The position numbers were made by a program, and so were the translations under genes. A model generated the notes under the pieces. That model saw nothing but the letters and a program-made list of their open reading frames with translations, made no database searches and was not told where the DNA came from. From positions 3,162,001 through 3,226,000 of the forward strand of contig NC_016599.1 of assembly GCF_000236705.1 (NCBI RefSeq): a stretch of DNA of 64,000 bases, given 5' to 3'. Positions 1 through 51,536 of the stretch are shown here, in pieces. Each line of letters starts with the position of its first letter. Within the stretch, counting starts at the first letter, position 1. Source of the stretch: Owenweeksia hongkongensis DSM 17368 (lineage in GTDB: Bacteria > Bacteroidota > Bacteroidia > Flavobacteriales > Schleiferiaceae).

Positions 1-1837
1 CAATTTGAACCATTGGTCCAAAACGGCCGATACGGGCATAAACATTTTTACCACTTTCAGGATCTTGACCAAGCAGTCTTTCGCCAGAAGCACGCTCTGA
101 GTTTTCTTCAACATCTTTTAAGTGCGGATGGAAATCTGAATAAAATTCATCAATCATCTGCGCCCACTTTTCATTACCAGATGCAATTTCGTCAAACTGA
201 GCCTCCACCTTAGCAGTAAAGTTGTAGTCCAATACTTTTTTGAAATGCTCCACCAAAAAGTCATTTACCACAGATCCGATATCTGTAGGCATCAACTTAT
301 TTTTATCGGCACCCGTGGTTTCACTAAGTGTTTTTTCGGCAATTTTAGAATCCTTAAGAATAAGTTGAGTGTAGTTTCTTTTCGTGCCTTCCAAGTCCGA
401 TTTCTGAATGTACTCTCTCTTTTGGATAGTACTAATAGTAGGGGCATATGTAGATGGACGGCCAATACCTAGTTCTTCTAATTTCTTTACCAAACTTGCT
501 TCAGTAAAGCGTGGAGGGTGCTGGGTGAATCTTTGAGTGGCGATAATATTATCATTATCTAAACTTTCACCTTTACTCATGGCAGGAAGCATTCCTTCTT
601 GCTCTTCCACATCTTCATCATCGGTGCCTTCAAGATATACTTTAAGGAAACCTTCAAACTTTATAACCTCACCACGAGCTACAAATTCCAGCTTTTCTTC
701 TGGGGTTTCTATTTTTAATACGGTTCGCTCCAATTGAGCATCACTCATTTGTGAAGCCAGTGTACGCTTCCAAATAAGGTCGTAAAGTTTGCGCTGCTGG
801 TCATCTGCACCGCCACTATGTTTGCTCATATCCGTTGGGCGGATAGCTTCGTGAGCTTCTTGAGCACCTTTACTTTTATTCGAATATTTTCTGCGCTTTG
901 CGTATTCTTTGCCGTAGCTTTTTTTGATTTCGTTCTCCGCCAGGCTCATTGCTTCATCGCTCAAGTTTACCGAGTCGGTACGCATATAGGTTATCTGTCC
1001 CGATTCGTAGAGTCTTTGCGCCACGCTCATCGTTTGCCCTACATTAAAATAGAGCTTACGGGCCGCTTCTTGCTGAAGGGTGGAAGTGGTAAAAGGTGCT
1101 GCCGGAGATTTTTTTGCTGGCTTGGTATCAATATCACCGATAGAGAATTTATAAGACTTACATTTTTCTAAAAAGTCTTTTGCTTCTTTTTCGGTGTCAA
1201 ATCGCTTATTGAGTTCTGCTTTAAATGATTTTCCTTCTTTATTAGAAAATATGGCTGCTACTCTAAAGTAAGAGGTGCTTTCAAAGTTTTGAATTTCGCG
1301 CTCACGTTCAACTATCAATCTTACGGCAACGGATTGCACACGTCCCGCAGAAAGTCCTGCGCGCACTTTTTTCCAAAGCACAGGTGATAATTCATACCCT
1401 ACCAAGCGGTCCAGAATACGTCTTGCCTGCTGAGCATCTACCAAATTTTGGTCAATTGTACGTGGGTTTTGAATAGCACGCTCAATTGCTCCTTTGGTGA
1501 TTTCGTGAAAAACGATACGATTGGTTGTAAGCGTATTTAGTCCCAAAGCTTCCGCCAGGTGCCAAGCAATAGCTTCCCCTTCGCGGTCCTCATCCGATGC
1601 AAGCCATACCGTGTCGGCTTTCTTGGCAAGGGCTTTTAGTTTTTTTACTACTTCCTTTTTGTCGCTGGAAATAGCGTAGCTCGGGGCGAAGTTATTTTCA
1701 ACATCAATCCCCATATCTTTCTTCACAAGGTCACGAATGTGGCCATAACTACTCTCTACCTGGTAATCTTTACCAAGGTATTTTTCAATGGTTTTGGCCT
1801 TTGCAGGTGACTCAACTATAACTAGGTTTTTCGGCAT
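1..1837 (-). CDS. topA: DNA topoisomerase I (5' part; C-terminus outside window)
   Basis: Type IA topoisomerase that relaxes negative supercoils. About 612 codons are visible; the gene continues past the window start. Translation from the ATG at 1837 gives the Toprim start (MPKNLVIVESPAKAKTI), then an acidic Toprim motif (SDEDREGEAIAWHL). The active-site tyrosine block YMRTDS follows, and later the conserved GIGRPSTYAPTISTIQ. There is no stop or frameshift in the visible part. It is transcribed away from miaB, with 155 bases between the two starts. Family assignment is firm; the length and zinc-finger content of the missing C-terminal part cannot be judged. Confidence 0.97.
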   Translation of the reverse strand, partial: MPKNLVIVESPAKAKTIEKYLGKDYQVESSYGHIRDLVKKDMGIDVENNFAPSYAISSDKKEVVKKLKALAKKADTVWLASDEDREGEAIAWHLAEALGLNTLTTNRIVFHEITKGAIERAIQNPRTIDQNLVDAQQARRILDRLVGYELSPVLWKKVRAGLSAGRVQSVAVRLIVEREREIQNFESTSYFRVAAIFSNKEGKSFKAELNKRFDTEKEAKDFLEKCKSYKFSIGDIDTKPAKKSPAAPFTTSTLQQEAARKLYFNVGQTMSVAQRLYESGQITYMRTDSVNLSDEAMSLAENEIKKSYGKEYAKRRKYSNKSKGAQEAHEAIRPTDMSKHSGGADDQQRKLYDLIWKRTLASQMSDAQLERTVLKIETPEEKLEFVARGEVIKFEGFLKVYLEGTDDEDVEEQEGMLPAMSKGESLDNDNIIATQRFTQHPPRFTEASLVKKLEELGIGRPSTYAPTISTIQKREYIQKSDLEGTKRNYTQLILKDSKIAEKTLSETTGADKNKLMPTDIGSVVNDFLVEHFKKVLDYNFTAKVEAQFDEIASGNEKWAQMIDEFYSDFHPHLKDVEENSERASGERLLGQDPESGKNVYARIGRFGPMVQI

Positions 1838-46267: not shown

Positions 46268-48703
46268 CTAAAAATCTACACTCAAGCCCGCCATAAAGTT
46301 GATGCCCGCCATAGGGAAATAGAAGTTTTCAGTAATCTTTTCACCATAAATGTAGCTGTAGGTATAGCCATTTGGCTCATATTCCTGATCAAACAAGTTG
46401 GCAATCAAAAGGTGTACATTCAGACGGTCTACCCATTTTACCGGAAGATTATAACCTAAACGTAGATCGGTGACGTTAAAGGCATCCAGGCTTTTGGATT
46501 CACTTGAGGTGTTGTCCATAAATTGCTGACCTACATATTTCGTGTTCCAATCGATGGTGGCTCCTGCTATTGGCTTCACGGTGATGTTGATTCCACCTAT
46601 TACATTTGGAGAATATGAAATGTCGGTACTCTTAAAGTTTTCTTCTTGGTACCCGCCATTGTCATAATCCACCACGTAGTCTGTGAAATTTAAAATCTTG
46701 TTTTGACTGAAGGTGAAATTCGCTCCAAGCTGCAAATACTTGTTTACAATATAACTTCCCACTAGCTCAATACCTGCGCGATAGCTCTCAGGAGCATTGG
46801 TGCGAATGGGAGAGCCTACATCATTAAGTTGACCTGTTAGCACCAACTGATTGGTGTAATCCATAAAGAAAAGATTAGCATTGAAGAAGGCACGCTCGGT
46901 TTGTAATTCGTAGCCAGCTTCATAGTCAATCAGCTCTTCAGCTTTTGGTTGAAGATCTACAGGTGCATCTAAGAAGTCGGTACGAACTGGCTCGCGATGC
47001 GCCACAGCAACAGATGCATACACTCGGCTTTGGTCATTCAAAGCGTAGTTTACCCCGGCTTTTGGATTGAAAAATGTGAAGCTTCTGTCAACATCTATGG
47101 TAGTTCCATCTTCATCAATTCCATTGGCTACATAGCTTACCGATCTCAACTGTAAATCTCCGTAAGCGGTAAACTTCCCAACAGTATAGCTGGCCTTTAG
47201 GTAATTGTTGAAATCTGTTTTGGTGGTTCTATTGTCATAATATCTGTCACGGATGTCGCCATTGCTGGCGTATTGCGCCCAAATGATTTCACCATAGTGG
47301 TCGCCAATGTACTTGTTATACGCTCCGCCAAAAGTCAACTGGAGTTGATTCAAATCCGCTTGAAGCGAATAGGTGGTTCCAATCAAATTATTGTTCAACC
47401 AGCGTCTGCGGATAAGATCGGTGCTGGTAACGGTGTCGCCACCAAGAATCACATCATCCAAACCATAATGCGCTAAATCATCATCTTTGCGATATTGCTC
47501 ATAATAGCCACGCCCCCAGGTATAATGCAGCGCAGCATTTGCGGTAAGCTTTTCGCTAAAAGCGTGAGAAACATGAAGTTGATAGTGATCCTGTTTGTAG
47601 TTGTCCGTTTCATTATCATACGTGTAATAATTGTAAGTGCGGGGGTTAGAATTTACCAAGTTGGCCGAATCCTGGCTGTCATACCCATTGTTTATAATGT
47701 GTGTGTACAAAGCAGCGCTATCGCCATTCAGTTTGGCTTCAGGAACTCCCCACCAAGCCTGATAAGTTTCCTCACCACCACCAAAGTGGATAAGCTGTAC
47801 ACTGGTTTTTTTAGAGTAATAACTAGCCGATAAATAGTAAGACTTAAGATCTGCAGTAGCTCGATCAATAAAACCGTCTGAATTTATTTTTGAGAAACGA
47901 GCATCAATGCTCCAATGATCATTTAGCAATCCGCTTCCTGCACGCACGTTGGTTTTTAATGTGTTGAATGAACCTCCAGTTACATCCGCACTAGCGTAAG
48001 GCTTCAAGCTAAGTTCGCTGGTTTTTATGTTTACGCTGGCGCCAAAAGCACCGGCTCCGTTGGTGGATGTTCCTACACCACGCTGCACTTGTATAGATTG
48101 CGCAGAAGAAGCTAGATCTGGTGTGTTTACCCAAAAGACTCCATGCGATTCAGGGTCATTCAGGGCGATCCCATTTACGGTAACGTTAATGCGGCTAATG
48201 TCGCTGCCGCGAATTCGAATACCCGTGTAGCCAATGCCAGTTCCTGCATCCGAACTCACCACCGTACTCGGCAAATCCTTGAGAACGAAAGGCATATCTC
48301 GGCCTTCGTTTCGTTCTTCAATCTGCGTTTTACTGAGGTTGCTCTTCGCAATAGGTACATTTTTTCCTGCTCTTACGGCAGAAATGTTTACCGGCTCCAA
48401 AAGCTCAGAAGCTTCGGCTAAAGCAAAGTTTACAATGGCATTTTCATTGGCTATCACTTCTTTGGTCAGGGGTTCAAATCCCACGAAAGAGGCGGTAAGT
48501 TGATAGGTTTTGCCCTTTTCGAGCTGAATTTCAAACTCACCATTGGTACCACTTTGTACCCCTGCTTTGGTAGATTGAACAACGATAGTGGCACCCGGTA
48601 ATGGTTCGCCATCAGTTTTGGAAGTTACCCTTCCGGAAATGGTTTGTGCCTGCGTTTGCAGAAACAGTGCTGACAATGCAGCAAAAGCAATTAGCTTCTT
48701 CAT
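46268..48703 (-). CDS. TonB-dependent receptor, predicted thiamine importer
   Basis: 811 residues from the Met at 48703, which begins the signal peptide (MKKLIAFAALSALFLQTQAQ); seven upstream codons in the frame are excluded. Order: carboxypeptidase-regulatory-like domain (ISGRVTSKTDGEPLPGATI), plug with FVLKDLPSTVVSSDAGTGIGYTGIRIRGSD and QVQRGVGTSTNGAGAFGASVNI, then a 22-strand-type barrel ending in Phe (MAGLSVDF). Specificity is inferred from the TPP riboswitch in its leader and from the neighbouring permease: outer-membrane uptake of thiamine or a phosphate of it. TonB receptors of iron uptake look similar, so the riboswitch is the main argument. Confidence 0.9.
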   Translation of the reverse strand: MKKLIAFAALSALFLQTQAQTISGRVTSKTDGEPLPGATIVVQSTKAGVQSGTNGEFEIQLEKGKTYQLTASFVGFEPLTKEVIANENAIVNFALAEASELLEPVNISAVRAGKNVPIAKSNLSKTQIEERNEGRDMPFVLKDLPSTVVSSDAGTGIGYTGIRIRGSDISRINVTVNGIALNDPESHGVFWVNTPDLASSAQSIQVQRGVGTSTNGAGAFGASVNIKTSELSLKPYASADVTGGSFNTLKTNVRAGSGLLNDHWSIDARFSKINSDGFIDRATADLKSYYLSASYYSKKTSVQLIHFGGGEETYQAWWGVPEAKLNGDSAALYTHIINNGYDSQDSANLVNSNPRTYNYYTYDNETDNYKQDHYQLHVSHAFSEKLTANAALHYTWGRGYYEQYRKDDDLAHYGLDDVILGGDTVTSTDLIRRRWLNNNLIGTTYSLQADLNQLQLTFGGAYNKYIGDHYGEIIWAQYASNGDIRDRYYDNRTTKTDFNNYLKASYTVGKFTAYGDLQLRSVSYVANGIDEDGTTIDVDRSFTFFNPKAGVNYALNDQSRVYASVAVAHREPVRTDFLDAPVDLQPKAEELIDYEAGYELQTERAFFNANLFFMDYTNQLVLTGQLNDVGSPIRTNAPESYRAGIELVGSYIVNKYLQLGANFTFSQNKILNFTDYVVDYDNGGYQEENFKSTDISYSPNVIGGINITVKPIAGATIDWNTKYVGQQFMDNTSSESKSLDAFNVTDLRLGYNLPVKWVDRLNVHLLIANLFDQEYEPNGYTYSYIYGEKITENFYFPMAGINFMAGLSVDF

Positions 48704-48776
48704 GATAAAATGTAATTCTATCACGAATAAAAGGGGCTATTTACTCGCTTGGTTAAATAAAAATTTGATGTCAATT

Positions 48777-48855
48777 ATCCCTTGGCAGCATTACCTGCCC
48801 AGGTTCATTGGGTATAATCTCAGCCCCAAAATTAATCGGGACACCCCTATGAGAT
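48777..48855 (-). promoter_or_regulatory. TPP (THI-box) riboswitch
   Basis: On the minus strand the conserved TPP core is complete: GGGGTG (48847 down), CTGAGA (48823-48818), ATACCC, GAACCTG, the GGCAG-GTAAT-GCTGCC hairpin and closing AAGGGA. P1 forms between 48855-48851 (ATCTC) and 48781-48777 (GGGAT). It lies 73 bases upstream of the receptor ATG. A later AGCCCC (minus strand, 48738-48733) can pair with the GGGGCT that precedes GAGA, a possible expression switch. TPP binding would lower expression. Confidence 0.93.
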
Positions 48856-48921
48856 GTAAGCCGCGAAAGTACTTATGAAAAATGAAGCGGCAATACAGAG
48901 CTGAATTAAAGTTGAGAAATA

Positions 48922-49440
48922 TTAGTGAAATGCTTCGAGGGCTGAAAGAGCATTTTCAAACCTATCATCAAAATCTCCTTTTACAACTTGATACGGACGA
49001 TTTAATTTTTTTATCAAATCAAGACTCAGTTCAAAAAGCTCTAAGCGATTATCAGGATTTTCTCGGAGAGGGTCACTCTCCCAAGGAATGTCTGGGTAGG
49101 TGAGAAGGTAAATGTGGTCGTTTTCCTTTTCAATTTCTTTCTCGATAAAGTCATGCGTTTTGCCAAAGACAAGCTCTTCCCAAATTTTGAAATTAAGTAA
49201 ATCGGTATCTAAAAACACCAGGTTTTCAGCTCGTTGAATTGCTTTTTGCTGATGCGATTTATGGCCTATTATAATTTTTTCAAGAGTGTCAAAATCATAC
49301 GCTGAGCCATTTTTTTCTAAATAATGACGAGCATATTCATCTGCAAAGGGCACTTGAAAATGCTCCCCTAGTTTTTTGGTGAGCCATGATTTTCCGGTTG
49401 ACTCTGGCCCTGAGATTACTATCTTTTTTAAGCTGTCCAT
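48922..49440 (-). CDS. NadR-like P-loop kinase, candidate thiamine or nucleoside kinase
   Basis: 172 residues from ATG 49440. P-loop GPESTGKS (11-18) with downstream acidic block DEYARHYL, the fold of the ribosylnicotinamide-kinase part of NadR. No DNA-binding or adenylyltransferase domain is attached. It overlaps the permease gene by 13 bases, so the two are co-translated. Phosphorylation by such a kinase would trap an incoming vitamin; thiamine is favoured by the riboswitch-receptor next door and ribosylnicotinamide by homology. The frame extends 40 codons upstream into the permease gene; that part is not conserved. Confidence 0.8.
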   Translation of the reverse strand: MDSLKKIVISGPESTGKSWLTKKLGEHFQVPFADEYARHYLEKNGSAYDFDTLEKIIIGHKSHQQKAIQRAENLVFLDTDLLNFKIWEELVFGKTHDFIEKEIEKENDHIYLLTYPDIPWESDPLRENPDNRLELFELSLDLIKKLNRPYQVVKGDFDDRFENALSALEAFH

Positions 49441-49976
49441 TCTAGTAATCCATTTACGGCAAGTAAGGTGTAAAGTACAAATAGTGCTGTGGCAAAATAT
49501 AACTTGCGTTTGTAGTATAGGTATACCGAAACAGCATCTATCACTATCCAATACCACCAATTGTCGGGGATTAGATTAATCATTAATAAGGTGGCAAAAA
49601 TGCTAAAAACGGTAGTGAAGGAGTCGATGTAGGGAGTAGCTGCATCTGTCATTTTTTTTAAAAGAGCACCAGTGATTATAACTAAAGCGGTTCCTGATAA
49701 AATTATCATTCCGTGGATGGACCAACTCAGGCTTCCGGATATTCCACCTCCAGAATCATTCCAATGCATCCACCCGTAGATAGAAGTGAAAATATAAAAG
49801 GCTTGAAGTAGCGACTCTGCATAAATTCGCTTAATAAAACAGATGTATAGGAAAAGCAGCGAGCTGATAATGGCTGCAATCCAGCACCATACATAGCCAT
49901 AGGTGATTAGTAATGTATAGGAAAGTCCGGCAACTACAGCAACTCCTTCCAGCCACTTTAATCCTTTGTTGGTCAT
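49428..49976 (-). CDS. PnuC/PnuT-family vitamin permease
   Basis: 182-residue inner-membrane protein with about seven helices. The family motifs are visible: YVWCWIAAIISSLLFLYICF, FYIFTSIYGWMHW and the C-terminal NWWYWIVIDAVSVYLYYKRKLY. PnuC members move ribosylnicotinamide; PnuT members move thiamine and in Bacteroidota sit with TPP-riboswitch TonB receptors, as here. The permease/kinase pair lies upstream of the riboswitch, so the riboswitch itself controls the receptor only, unless an internal transcript reads through. Confidence 0.88.
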   Translation of the reverse strand: MTNKGLKWLEGVAVVAGLSYTLLITYGYVWCWIAAIISSLLFLYICFIKRIYAESLLQAFYIFTSIYGWMHWNDSGGGISGSLSWSIHGMIILSGTALVIITGALLKKMTDAATPYIDSFTTVFSIFATLLMINLIPDNWWYWIVIDAVSVYLYYKRKLYFATALFVLYTLLAVNGLLEWTA

Positions 49977-50082: not shown

Positions 50083-50835
50083 CTAAGGTTTTGAAACGTT
50101 GTGAACGGCTTCAGCAATCGTCTTTATTAAATCCGGATTTTCTTCTGACGCATTTCCAACTACAACGATGTCAGCGCCTGCTTTACAAATTTTCACAGCA
50201 GTTTCTGCATCGCGAATACCCCCTCCAATAATAATTGGTAAATCCACAGACTTACGAACAGCTCCAATCATTTTTGCGCTGATGGGGTTGTCGGCTCCAG
50301 AGCCCCCGTCCATGTAGATGAGTTTTTGGCCAAGCATTTCTCCTGCCATAGCGGTACATGCGGCAATCTCAGGTTTGTTGTGTGGTACAGGAGCGCTACC
50401 GCTCATATAACTAGCTGTGGTTTGTCTGCCGCTGTCTACCAAAATGTAGCCAGTAGCAAGAGTTTCAAGCTTTGCTTGCCTAATATATGGTGCAGCAATT
50501 ACATGGCTGCCGATTAAAAGTTCTGGGTTTCTGCCCGAAATTAGGGAGATGAAAAGCATGGCATCAGCCTTGCCAGAAATCTGCATGATACTTCCCGGAA
50601 AAAGGATGACAGGAATGTTAGTCATGCTTTTTATGGCGTCAATGCATTCGTCTAATGCATCTTTTACTAACAAACTTCCACCCAAAAAGATGAAGTCTGC
50701 TTCCGCTTCATTCGCCTTTTTGATGATGGTTTGCAAGGCATTAGAGTCAGGCGTGTCGGGGTCTACCAGCACAGCTAGCCTCTTCTTACCTTGTCGGTAA
50801 CCTTCGGTGATATTATGGATTGTTTTCGTAGCCAT
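50083..50835 (-). CDS. geranylgeranylglyceryl phosphate synthase-type enzyme
   Basis: 250-residue TIM-barrel prenyltransferase that joins glycerol-1-phosphate to a long prenyl diphosphate. Visible: KKRLAVLVDPD at the start, FIFLGGSLL, PVILFPGS, YMDGGSGADNPIS and IIIGGGIRDAETA (phosphate-binding loop). This is the bacterial group-II GGGPS/PcrB-like family regularly found in Bacteroidota. The product in these bacteria is not settled. Probably in one transcript with the permease (106 bases downstream). Confidence 0.9.
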   Translation of the reverse strand: MATKTIHNITEGYRQGKKRLAVLVDPDTPDSNALQTIIKKANEAEADFIFLGGSLLVKDALDECIDAIKSMTNIPVILFPGSIMQISGKADAMLFISLISGRNPELLIGSHVIAAPYIRQAKLETLATGYILVDSGRQTTASYMSGSAPVPHNKPEIAACTAMAGEMLGQKLIYMDGGSGADNPISAKMIGAVRKSVDLPIIIGGGIRDAETAVKICKAGADIVVVGNASEENPDLIKTIAEAVHNVSKP

Positions 50836-50897: not shown

Positions 50898-51536
50898 CTA
50901 AGCTATGATTTCCCACCCATATGTAATGTGTAGGCTTTCAATGCTTTTAAAGAAAAGCCTTATGTTTTTGTGATAGTCATCGGTTTTTATAGTGCCTGAA
51001 GTTTCGCAATTAGGTTGGTATGGAAAAGGTTTAACGGATAACTCGCTAATAAAGTTCAACCTACGGTTTCCCGTAATCTTTACCATCACTTCTTTGGCTC
51101 CCCAGTAAAGGGTTAAATGCTCTACCTCAGTTTTATTTTGAATGGATTTCTTTTCTTCTTTACGCAAAAACTTGTGAGCTATTCTTTTTATACGGTCTCT
51201 AAAAAGTTCAAGGTCAATTCCTACTGGATTTTTATCACAAATTATCATTCCTGCAAATCCATCAGTATGTGAAAAGGAAATATGGTATCCATTTTTTAGG
51301 AAGGGTTTTCCATCTTCATTGTAGTGTACGGCTGGGTTGTGCTCAAAATACTCTATCAGGCATTGGCGTAAAGCCAAAAACTCATTTCGCTTTTTAGGAT
51401 TGGTAAATCTTTGGAATCGGTCGGCATCGGATGGGTGCATTTGTATACCATCCATAAGCTGTTCTTCAGTTTCTTTAATTTCCCAAATGATGATACTCGT
51501 TGATTGCGAGATATTAAAGCGTTGATATAATGGCAT
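50898..51536 (-). CDS. Sfp-type 4'-phosphopantetheinyl transferase
   Basis: 212 residues. The metal-binding VGIDLE and the WGAKEVMVKI block are the two signature motifs of this superfamily, which activates carrier proteins by adding phosphopantetheine from CoA; HISFSHTDGFA is also typical. The carrier partner may be the fatty-acid ACP or a secondary-metabolite protein; none is nearby. Divergent from ahcY. Confidence 0.92.
   Translation of the reverse strand: MPLYQRFNISQSTSIIIWEIKETEEQLMDGIQMHPSDADRFQRFTNPKKRNEFLALRQCLIEYFEHNPAVHYNEDGKPFLKNGYHISFSHTDGFAGMIICDKNPVGIDLELFRDRIKRIAHKFLRKEEKKSIQNKTEVEHLTLYWGAKEVMVKITGNRRLNFISELSVKPFPYQPNCETSGTIKTDDYHKNIRLFFKSIESLHITYGWEIIA

Follow-up and report, generated by a model that had tools for sequence, protein, structure and literature searches.

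A riboswitch-marked locus of Owenweeksia hongkongensis and its relatives, with a NadR-type kinase proposed to phosphorylate thiamine

On the minus strand of the window analyzed here (64,000 nucleotides of Owenweeksia hongkongensis DSM 17368, contig NC_016599.1, positions 3,162,001 to 3,226,000) lie, in this order, a permease gene, a kinase gene, a riboswitch, and a receptor gene (Table 1). We conclude that they probably constitute a thiamine salvage system in which a NadR-type thiamine kinase, together with ThiL, replaces thiamine pyrophosphokinase (TPK). In the proposed scheme, the TonB-dependent receptor, under a TPP off-switch, would carry thiamine across the outer membrane, and an inner-membrane carrier (either the PnuC of the window or a second PnuC of this genome that is under another TPP switch) would pass it on. 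The kinase would then convert thiamine to thiamine monophosphate (TMP), trapping it, and ThiL would convert TMP to TPP; the pair would thereby substitute for TPK. Homology of the kinase to ribosylnicotinamide kinase speaks against a thiamine function, as does the pairing of PnuC with such a kinase, which also marks nicotinamide riboside (NR) salvage. A preliminary description of this DNA had reported the same elements, and we recovered them on the strand and in the order claimed, with the permease and kinase genes ahead of the riboswitch and their reading frames sharing the 13 bases from 49428 to 49440.

Table 1. Features of the proposed thiamine salvage locus (positions are those of the window)
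Feature	Coordinates	Strand	Evidence
PnuC-family permease, 182 aa	49428..49976	-	PF04973, 155.5 bits; clade of kinase-linked PnuCs
NadR-type P-loop kinase with a single domain (172 aa); putative thiamine kinase	48922..49440	-	PF13521, the NadR kinase part; predicted fold; complementarity to TPK
Putative promoter-like sequence, TTG - 19 nt - TACTTTCG, just 5' of the aptamer	48864..48893	-	8 of 9 positions of the consensus
TPP riboswitch aptamer	48760..48858	-	Full-length match to RF00059 (E 1.2e-7) with 47.0 bits, under the gathering score
TonB-dependent receptor, 811 aa from ATG; proposed outer-membrane thiamine receptor	46268..48703	-	TonB barrel, plug, and CarbopepD_reg domains (PF00593, PF07715, PF13715)

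The covariance search matched RF00059 over its whole length (model positions 1-105), and the span reported earlier for a complete aptamer before the receptor gene, 48777-48855, falls within the match. Because its score is below the Rfam gathering score for this family (54.3 bits), which is a reporting cut-off and not a biological feature, the aptamer is absent from a gathering-level scan of the window; it is nonetheless one of three TPP sites found at E 0.001 in this 4.0-Mb genome. The homologous site of genome G015, which is also kinase- and receptor-linked, passes the gathering score (58.9 bits), and a comparison over 18 sites revealed changes on both sides of 8 of the 15 predicted aptamer pairs. 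The aptamer precedes the receptor gene alone and has a promoter-like sequence of its own, in agreement with the initial proposal that it controls only the receptor; we consider it probable that a separate promoter drives the riboswitch and that only this gene is under its control. Scans for terminators and sigma-70 promoters gave no clear excess over shuffles. The receptor gene would start at the ATG at 48703, although the GTG at 48724 is also a possible start, and its product is 39% identical to the receptor of an operon in one other genome (L185) that reads TPP site, receptor, PnuC, TPK, with TPK occupying the matching slot.

Chance adjacency of the kinase and the riboswitch can be ruled out, because across the order the pair recurs in numerous genomes, as well as at many named loci. 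In 68 of the 93 kinase genomes of the order, the kinase gene has a TPP site no more than 8 kb away, which bears out the thiamine link first suggested for the window; the site is downstream on the same strand in 62 of these, and within 160 bp in 43 of the 62. Among the 78 named loci that are not NadR loci, 36 have a same-strand downstream TPP site and 26 encode a YkoF/Thiamine_BP-like thiamine-binding protein. Of 15 such proteins that were aligned, 12 have a PF01910 match at E 0.01, and YkoF (1s7h) is recovered by the profile at 1.1e-6; no YkoF-like gene was found among the genes of the window cluster. By comparison, neither a TPP site (0/13) nor a YkoF-like gene (0/13) was present at the 13 NMNAT-fused true NadR loci, that of Escherichia coli included. 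One genome that has TPK and lacks the kinase (L187) carries the arrangement PnuC, DUF4301, ArfB, TPP site, receptor, with no kinase domain, which relatives carry beside or fused to DUF4301. The preliminary description had named, as evidence against its reading, permease-kinase pairs found regularly without thiamine-linked neighbors. Such loci do exist in part of the set: 30 of the 78 non-NadR loci, some of which end at contig ends, have neither a same-strand downstream TPP switch nor a YkoF-like gene, and these include all 13 Chitinophagaceae loci (0/13 with either feature on these terms). One of these loci (L098) does have a TPP site, but on the opposite strand and ahead of a different PnuC gene. 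A scan of eight genes lying downstream of the kinase at eight loci showed no evident thiamine link. Glycosyltransferases, a desaturase, an aldose epimerase, and an EamA transporter are among the products encoded there.

The distribution of the kinase is complementary to that of TPK. Across 148 genomes of the order, which are related and so do not represent independent events, the kinase was found in 93 and TPK in 49, with both in only 8 (kinase only, 85; TPK only, 41; neither, 14). A second draw of 73 genomes from the window's class gave 45 with the kinase only, 14 with TPK only, 14 with both, and none with neither; in each set the co-occurrence (8 and 14 genomes, respectively) is confined to one genus. 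Eleven of the genomes with neither enzyme also lack ThiE; ten are less than 90% complete, and one is of 0.3 Mb. Scoring ThiE by TIGR00693 and TPK by PF04263, we found that 78 of the 85 kinase-only genomes lack ThiE; 83 lack ThiC. In 69 of these 78 genomes, which have the kinase and lack both TPK and ThiE, ThiL is over its cut-off, so their TMP must come from another source. Retention of ThiL is not diagnostic by itself, as ThiL is likewise kept without ThiE by five genomes that have only TPK and by one that has both enzymes. The window genome has ThiL over the cut-off, no match to PF04263 at E 0.001, and, under a TPP switch, a weak ThiE-like gene (103 bits against a cut-off of 145.1), and thus may have a second source of TMP. 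At least one degenerate TPK homolog escapes detection by PF04263. A Roseivirga protein (L093, 10571-11218), which from BLAST had appeared to be a TPK encoded beside the kinase, has no PF04263 match and altered motifs; we therefore judge it, by sequence, to be a TPK homolog and not an active TPK. In E. coli, the thiamine kinase ThiK (TIGR02721) forms TMP from thiamine ahead of ThiL. We propose the same reaction for the window kinase, which belongs to a different protein family: TIGR02721 had no match in the window genome at E 0.001, and among 70 genomes from the family to which the window belongs, it exceeded its cut-off in none and matched weakly in two.

The kinase domain belongs to PF13521 (AAA_28, 99 bits), which corresponds to the kinase part of NadR, and it matches TIGR01526 at positions 163-325 with 98.5 bits, below the cut-off of 341.15. 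Its predicted structure (AF2, pLDDT 95.3) has NadR (8x7f) as the best fold match. The protein thus has the ribosylnicotinamide-kinase-type P-loop domain, but the profile search found no CTP_transf_like match that would indicate an NMN adenylyltransferase (NMNAT) domain; because it is a single-domain protein without that activity's domain, we do not class it as NadR, and plain NadR identity is ruled out. In the tree, it falls in a 52-row set free of any NadR (support 99/95). Following the DTD motif, the window kinase has N83, F84, K85, and E89, where 14 aligned NadR rows have T, T, often Q, and varied residues; residues C-terminal to this motif separate the two groups better than the lid motif, yet incompletely. 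The lid motif itself, PD.PW..DPLR, was rejected as a clean marker, since several Bacteroidota NadRs also have D.PW. The earlier suggestion that this NadR-fold kinase may phosphorylate thiamine is favored by the comparative evidence, namely complementarity to TPK, linkage to TPP sites, and retention of ThiL. Judged from these sequence comparisons, the kinase most likely phosphorylates thiamine to TMP and would work with ThiL in place of TPK.

The permease, a member of the PnuC family, lies in the tree within a clade of kinase-linked PnuCs on the NadR-linked side (branch 90/95), and has W32, Q58, S125, and T129 in common with NadR-linked PnuCs. It does not group with the PnuCs of TPK operons or with those that a TPP switch directly precedes, and the second PnuC of the genome, directly under its own TPP switch, groups elsewhere. 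The name PnuT-type, given to the permease at first, is therefore not upheld, and its placement nearer the NadR-linked PnuCs means that its substrate may be either thiamine or NR. The same placement would suit an ordinary NR salvage pair, a PnuC and a ribosylnicotinamide kinase, lying beside a thiamine receptor by coincidence, as would the facts that the nearest solved relatives of the kinase are NadR, that 9 of the 13 true NadR loci also have PnuC, and that Chitinophagaceae pairs lack thiamine neighbors on the kinase strand. We regard this explanation as unlikely, given that the kinase keeps its TPP linkage even where no PnuC is listed within 3 kb (17 of the 68 genomes), is complementary to TPK, and has no NMNAT domain to use NMN; moreover, five kinase genomes (G133, G143, G192, G277, and G313) encode a true NadR as a second gene, and NadR loci have no TPP site. 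A different thiamine-related substrate of the kinase, such as HMP, thiazole alcohol, or a breakdown product of thiamine, is highly improbable: the YkoF-like genes at 26 of the 78 loci are of a thiamine-binding type, and YkoF-type proteins bind HMP as well as thiamine, but with ThiE and ThiC missing from most kinase-only genomes, neither HMP nor thiazole phosphate could be built into TMP along the known route. Least credible is a pyrophosphate transfer that converts thiamine directly to TPP, as by TPK, which would agree with the complementarity and with the slot of TPK in the L185 operon, but not with a P-loop kinase fold of the NadR/NMP-kinase type, whose known members transfer one phosphate, or with the retention of ThiL in most kinase-only genomes that lack ThiE.

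The thiamine salvage system proposed here can be compared with two known systems, one for thiamine and one for NR. In Bacteroides thetaiotaomicron, the OMthi - PnuT - Tnr3 system for thiamine, described with split or joined operons (PMC5613172), has in common with the window locus a TPP riboswitch, a TonB receptor, a PnuC-family carrier, and a thiamine-activating enzyme, the last if our proposal for the window kinase holds. In contrast to that system, the enzyme slot of the window is taken by a NadR-type kinase and not by a thiamine pyrophosphokinase, carrier and kinase are encoded upstream of the riboswitch and are probably outside its control, and the carrier is outside the clade of the PnuC from the TPK operon. 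The window locus shares with NadR and PnuC, as passages on NR salvage present them (PMC7221760), the kinase fold, the sequence family, and the pairing with a PnuC-family carrier, but differs in the missing NMNAT domain, the residues after DTD, and the thiamine neighbors. We found no description of a NadR-like thiamine kinase in the titles, abstract openings, and passages of the literature searched.

Beyond the window, we think it reasonably likely that the single-domain NadR kinase branch supplies most Bacteroidia with their thiamine kinase, and that with ThiL it displaced TPK across much of the class. The displacement would have taken place within one and the same riboswitch-marked locus, with a catalytically degenerate TPK relic left behind here and there. 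More than half of the genomes of the order (78/148) have neither ThiE nor TPK, yet have the kinase; thus, no enzyme had been named in them for the activation of imported vitamin B1. If our reading is true, the kinase would fill this step in the many related bacteria from which the usual thiamine-activating enzyme is absent, its annotation as an NAD enzyme would be corrected, the P-loop kinase family would gain a new substrate, and predictions of B1 auxotrophy for a large phylum would become testable by a single enzyme assay.

On the minus strand of the Owenweeksia hongkongensis window, a PnuC-family permease gene is followed by the gene for a 172-aa NadR-type kinase, a TPP riboswitch (RF00059), and a TonB receptor gene; the genome is a single contig of 4.0 Mb, of which the window covers 3,162,001-3,226,000. 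Because only 106 bases separate the permease from the PcrB-like gene, the cluster has no YkoF-like gene.

Features of the locus and of related genes (window positions, unless a contig, C, or an extracted locus, L, is named; G000, window genome)
Feature	Position	Strand	Remark
PnuC-family permease	49976-49428	minus	first in transcription order
Kinase	49440-48922	minus	13-base overlap with permease
TPP aptamer	48858-48760	minus	63-base gap after kinase
TonB receptor	ATG 48703 (or GTG 48724) to 46268	minus	after aptamer
PcrB/geranylgeranylglyceryl-phosphate-synthase-like gene	50083-50835		cluster neighbour in several relatives too
Separate 4'-phosphopantetheinyl transferase	50898-51536		near cluster
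Second PnuC of genome	TPP C1:561995-562102, PnuC G000:C1:562179-562715 (L038 7153-7758)		directly under own TPP switch
TPP-led operon outside window	G000:C1:3665.6-3668.5 kb (L039 10592-13490)		TPP (64.5 bits), then methyltransferase, AIRS/ThiL-like, ThiE-like, Trm112-like
Kinase fused to 4'-phosphopantetheinyl transferase	L042 1232-2461; L043 4950-6203		
DUF4301 beside or fused to kinase	L040 6969-9083; L041 7017-9137; L120 6527-8080		Flavobacteriaceae
TPK homologue, Roseivirga pacifica	L093 10571-11218		215 aa

The kinase was compared with thiamine pyrophosphokinase (TPK, PF04263) across 148 genomes of the order, an identical draw in seven profile searches; the counts exclude two rows, G133:C13 and G143:C32, that are second copies of true NadR type, and both genomes keep another kinase row. 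The kinase was found in 93 genomes, a TPP site in 113, the PnuC family in 135, TPK in 49, ThiL in 142 (118 over the cut-off), ThiE in 37 (23 over the cut-off), and ThiC in 25. Kinase alone occurred in 85 genomes, TPK alone in 41, both in 8, and neither in 14 (Fisher p 1e-16, which overstates the evidence because the genomes are related). All members of families f1, f2, f5, f8, f9, f11, and f14 carry the kinase and none carries TPK, while f7 and f15, likewise without TPK, have the kinase in 8/12 and 7/12 members. TPK without kinase characterizes f4 (one genome), f6 (19/19), and f16 (19/20); f3 is mixed (kinase in 18 and TPK in 10 of 20), and f10, f12, and f13 have neither enzyme, with ThiE over the cut-off in a member of each. 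The eight genomes with both enzymes belong to a single f3 genus, in which the kinase open frame spans 733-800 aa; in G128, the one such genome scanned, the kinase is fused to DUF4301.

With ThiE rows under 21 bits (G055, G089, G096) treated as absent, 78 kinase-only genomes are without ThiE, and ThiL is over the cut-off in 69 of them; the corresponding figures are 5 of 24 for TPK only and 1 of 1 for both enzymes. Eleven genomes without ThiE have neither enzyme (10 under 90% complete, one a 0.3-Mb genome). In a second draw of 296 phylum genomes (completeness at least 90%), the 73 from the window's class, taken to be Bacteroidia, comprised 45 with kinase only, 14 with TPK only, 14 with both, and none with neither; G317 was scored as without kinase because its row is NadR, and the 14 with both are again the f3 genus. 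Outside the class, any match to the kinase alignment was found in 15 of 223 genomes, some of these being NadR.

In one genome, TPK occupies the place where the kinase would stand: locus L185 (G354) reads TPP - receptor - PnuC - TPK, an arrangement like the OMthi, pnuT, tnr3 operon described for gut Bacteroidetes in PMC5613172. Locus L187, from a genome with TPK and no kinase match (G064), reads PnuC - DUF4301 - ArfB - TPP - receptor, without a kinase domain. In Roseivirga pacifica (L093), a TPK homologue lies downstream of PnuC - kinase - TPP - receptor - ROK; it is 35% identical to the TPK of L184 and gave no match to PF04263. This homologue is altered in three stretches that we take to be TPK motifs, and in this one case may be read as a relic.

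In the order survey, kinase and TPP site share a contig and are no more than 8 kb apart in 68 of 93 genomes; the site is downstream on the kinase strand in 62 of these (at a distance of up to 160 bp in 43) and on the opposite strand in six. PnuC was listed no further than 3 kb away in 73 of 93 genomes, and in 17 the TPP link occurs with no such PnuC. A profile search of genome contigs supplied at least 80 loci outside the training set of our TPP covariance model, 2 of the 80 being NMNAT-fused NadR. Among the matches listed, 37 of 80 loci have a TPP site, 36 of these downstream on the kinase strand, and the 78 non-NadR loci have a downstream TPP site in 36, a YkoF-like gene in 26, either in 48, PnuC in 61, and a receptor in 37. 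By family, again among the matches listed, such downstream sites occur in 10/10 Hymenobacteraceae, 14/21 Flavobacteriaceae, and 0/13 Chitinophagaceae, one of which (L098) has a TPP site in front of a separate PnuC, on the strand opposite the kinase. A recurrent Flavobacteriaceae cluster among these matches is YkoF - PnuC - kinase - DUF4301 - ArfB - TPP - receptor. Single YkoF-like proteins match Pfam weakly (Thiamine_BP 12/15, Ykof 8/15 at E 0.01), and their profile retrieves the YkoF structure 1s7h (1.1e-6). The predicted structure of DUF4301 is similar to those of UDP-sugar pyrophosphorylases (best E 2e-11, TM about 0.5), suggesting a nucleotidyltransferase-like protein linked to thiamine salvage. 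Neither a YkoF-like gene nor a TPP site was found in any of 13 loci with NMNAT-fused NadR, E. coli among them; nine have PnuC, and L056 also has a TonB receptor. G133, G143, G192, G277, and G313 each have a kinase row distinct from their true NadR.

The kinase itself consists of one AAA_28 domain, and its similarity to NadR is restricted to the NadR kinase half; its predicted model (pLDDT 95.3) best matches NadR 8x7f (TM 0.84). When 73 kinase domains were placed in a tree, the NadR rows (11) required two changes, and the window kinase belonged to a 52-row set with support 99/95 that is free of NadR and includes two fusions to phosphopantetheinyl transferase; the placement of Flavobacteriaceae kinases and a few others near NadR was not resolved. 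In the alignment, the two positions after DTD-L-L are T in 13/14 and 14/14 NadR rows, and in 25/145 and 60/145 non-NadR rows; K85 and E89 (window kinase numbering) occur in 114/145 and 111/145 of the latter.

In the PnuC tree, the permease clusters with five PnuCs that are linked to the kinase (f1, f8, f15, L068; support 100/97). This cluster lies on the NadR-linked side, together with E. coli PnuC, and apart from the PnuCs that stand under a TPP switch or belong to the TPK operon. The residues of the permease are of NadR-linked type at W32, Q58, S125, and T129 and of thiamine-linked type at Y61, S150, and N139, a comparison in which much of the thiamine-linked set depends on the same thiamine hypothesis.

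The aptamer is a full-length match to RF00059 (47.0 bits, E 1.2e-7), and was missed by a plain window scan because this score is below the gathering cut-off of 54.3. A covariance model built from 18 TPP sites of the order (15 pairs, eight with both-side change somewhere) gives it 88.1 bits, the aptamer itself being a training member. Of 53 TPP sites, including two with no link to the kinase, 37 have TAnnTTTG in the 80 bases 5' of them, compared with a mean of 3.0 and a maximum of 9 over 300 mononucleotide-shuffled sets; TTG-17..23-TAnnTTTG occurs at 16 (shuffled mean 0.26, maximum 3). We take these motifs to be promoter consensus sequences; given their enrichment and an 8/9 match at the window site, the riboswitch and receptor probably form their own transcription unit, in line with the preliminary description, in which the riboswitch would control only the receptor. 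Compared with shuffles, the leader has a more stable fold (z -3.48); in the predicted structure, aptamer bases pair with a downstream CCCC and a hairpin conceals the start codon, which would fit translational control.

Three TPP sites were found in the window genome. The second PnuC belongs to another PnuC clade than the window permease, and the TPP-led operon outside the window perhaps serves a thiamine-related side pathway; weak ThiE and ThiL relatives also lie side by side in G049, G074, G111, and G145. At E 0.001 the genome gave no match to PF04263, ThiC, or ThiK; its ThiE-like protein reaches 103 bits (cut-off 145.1), and a full ThiL is present (325.9 bits).

The B1 salvage enzymes listed in PMC6593275 are ThiK, ThiM, and ThiN. 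In the open-licence literature, as far as we consulted it, no thiamine kinase of NadR type was described. We conclude that the window holds a real, conserved thiamine salvage locus, and that its kinase, whose reaction we infer, probably represents a new thiamine kinase family.
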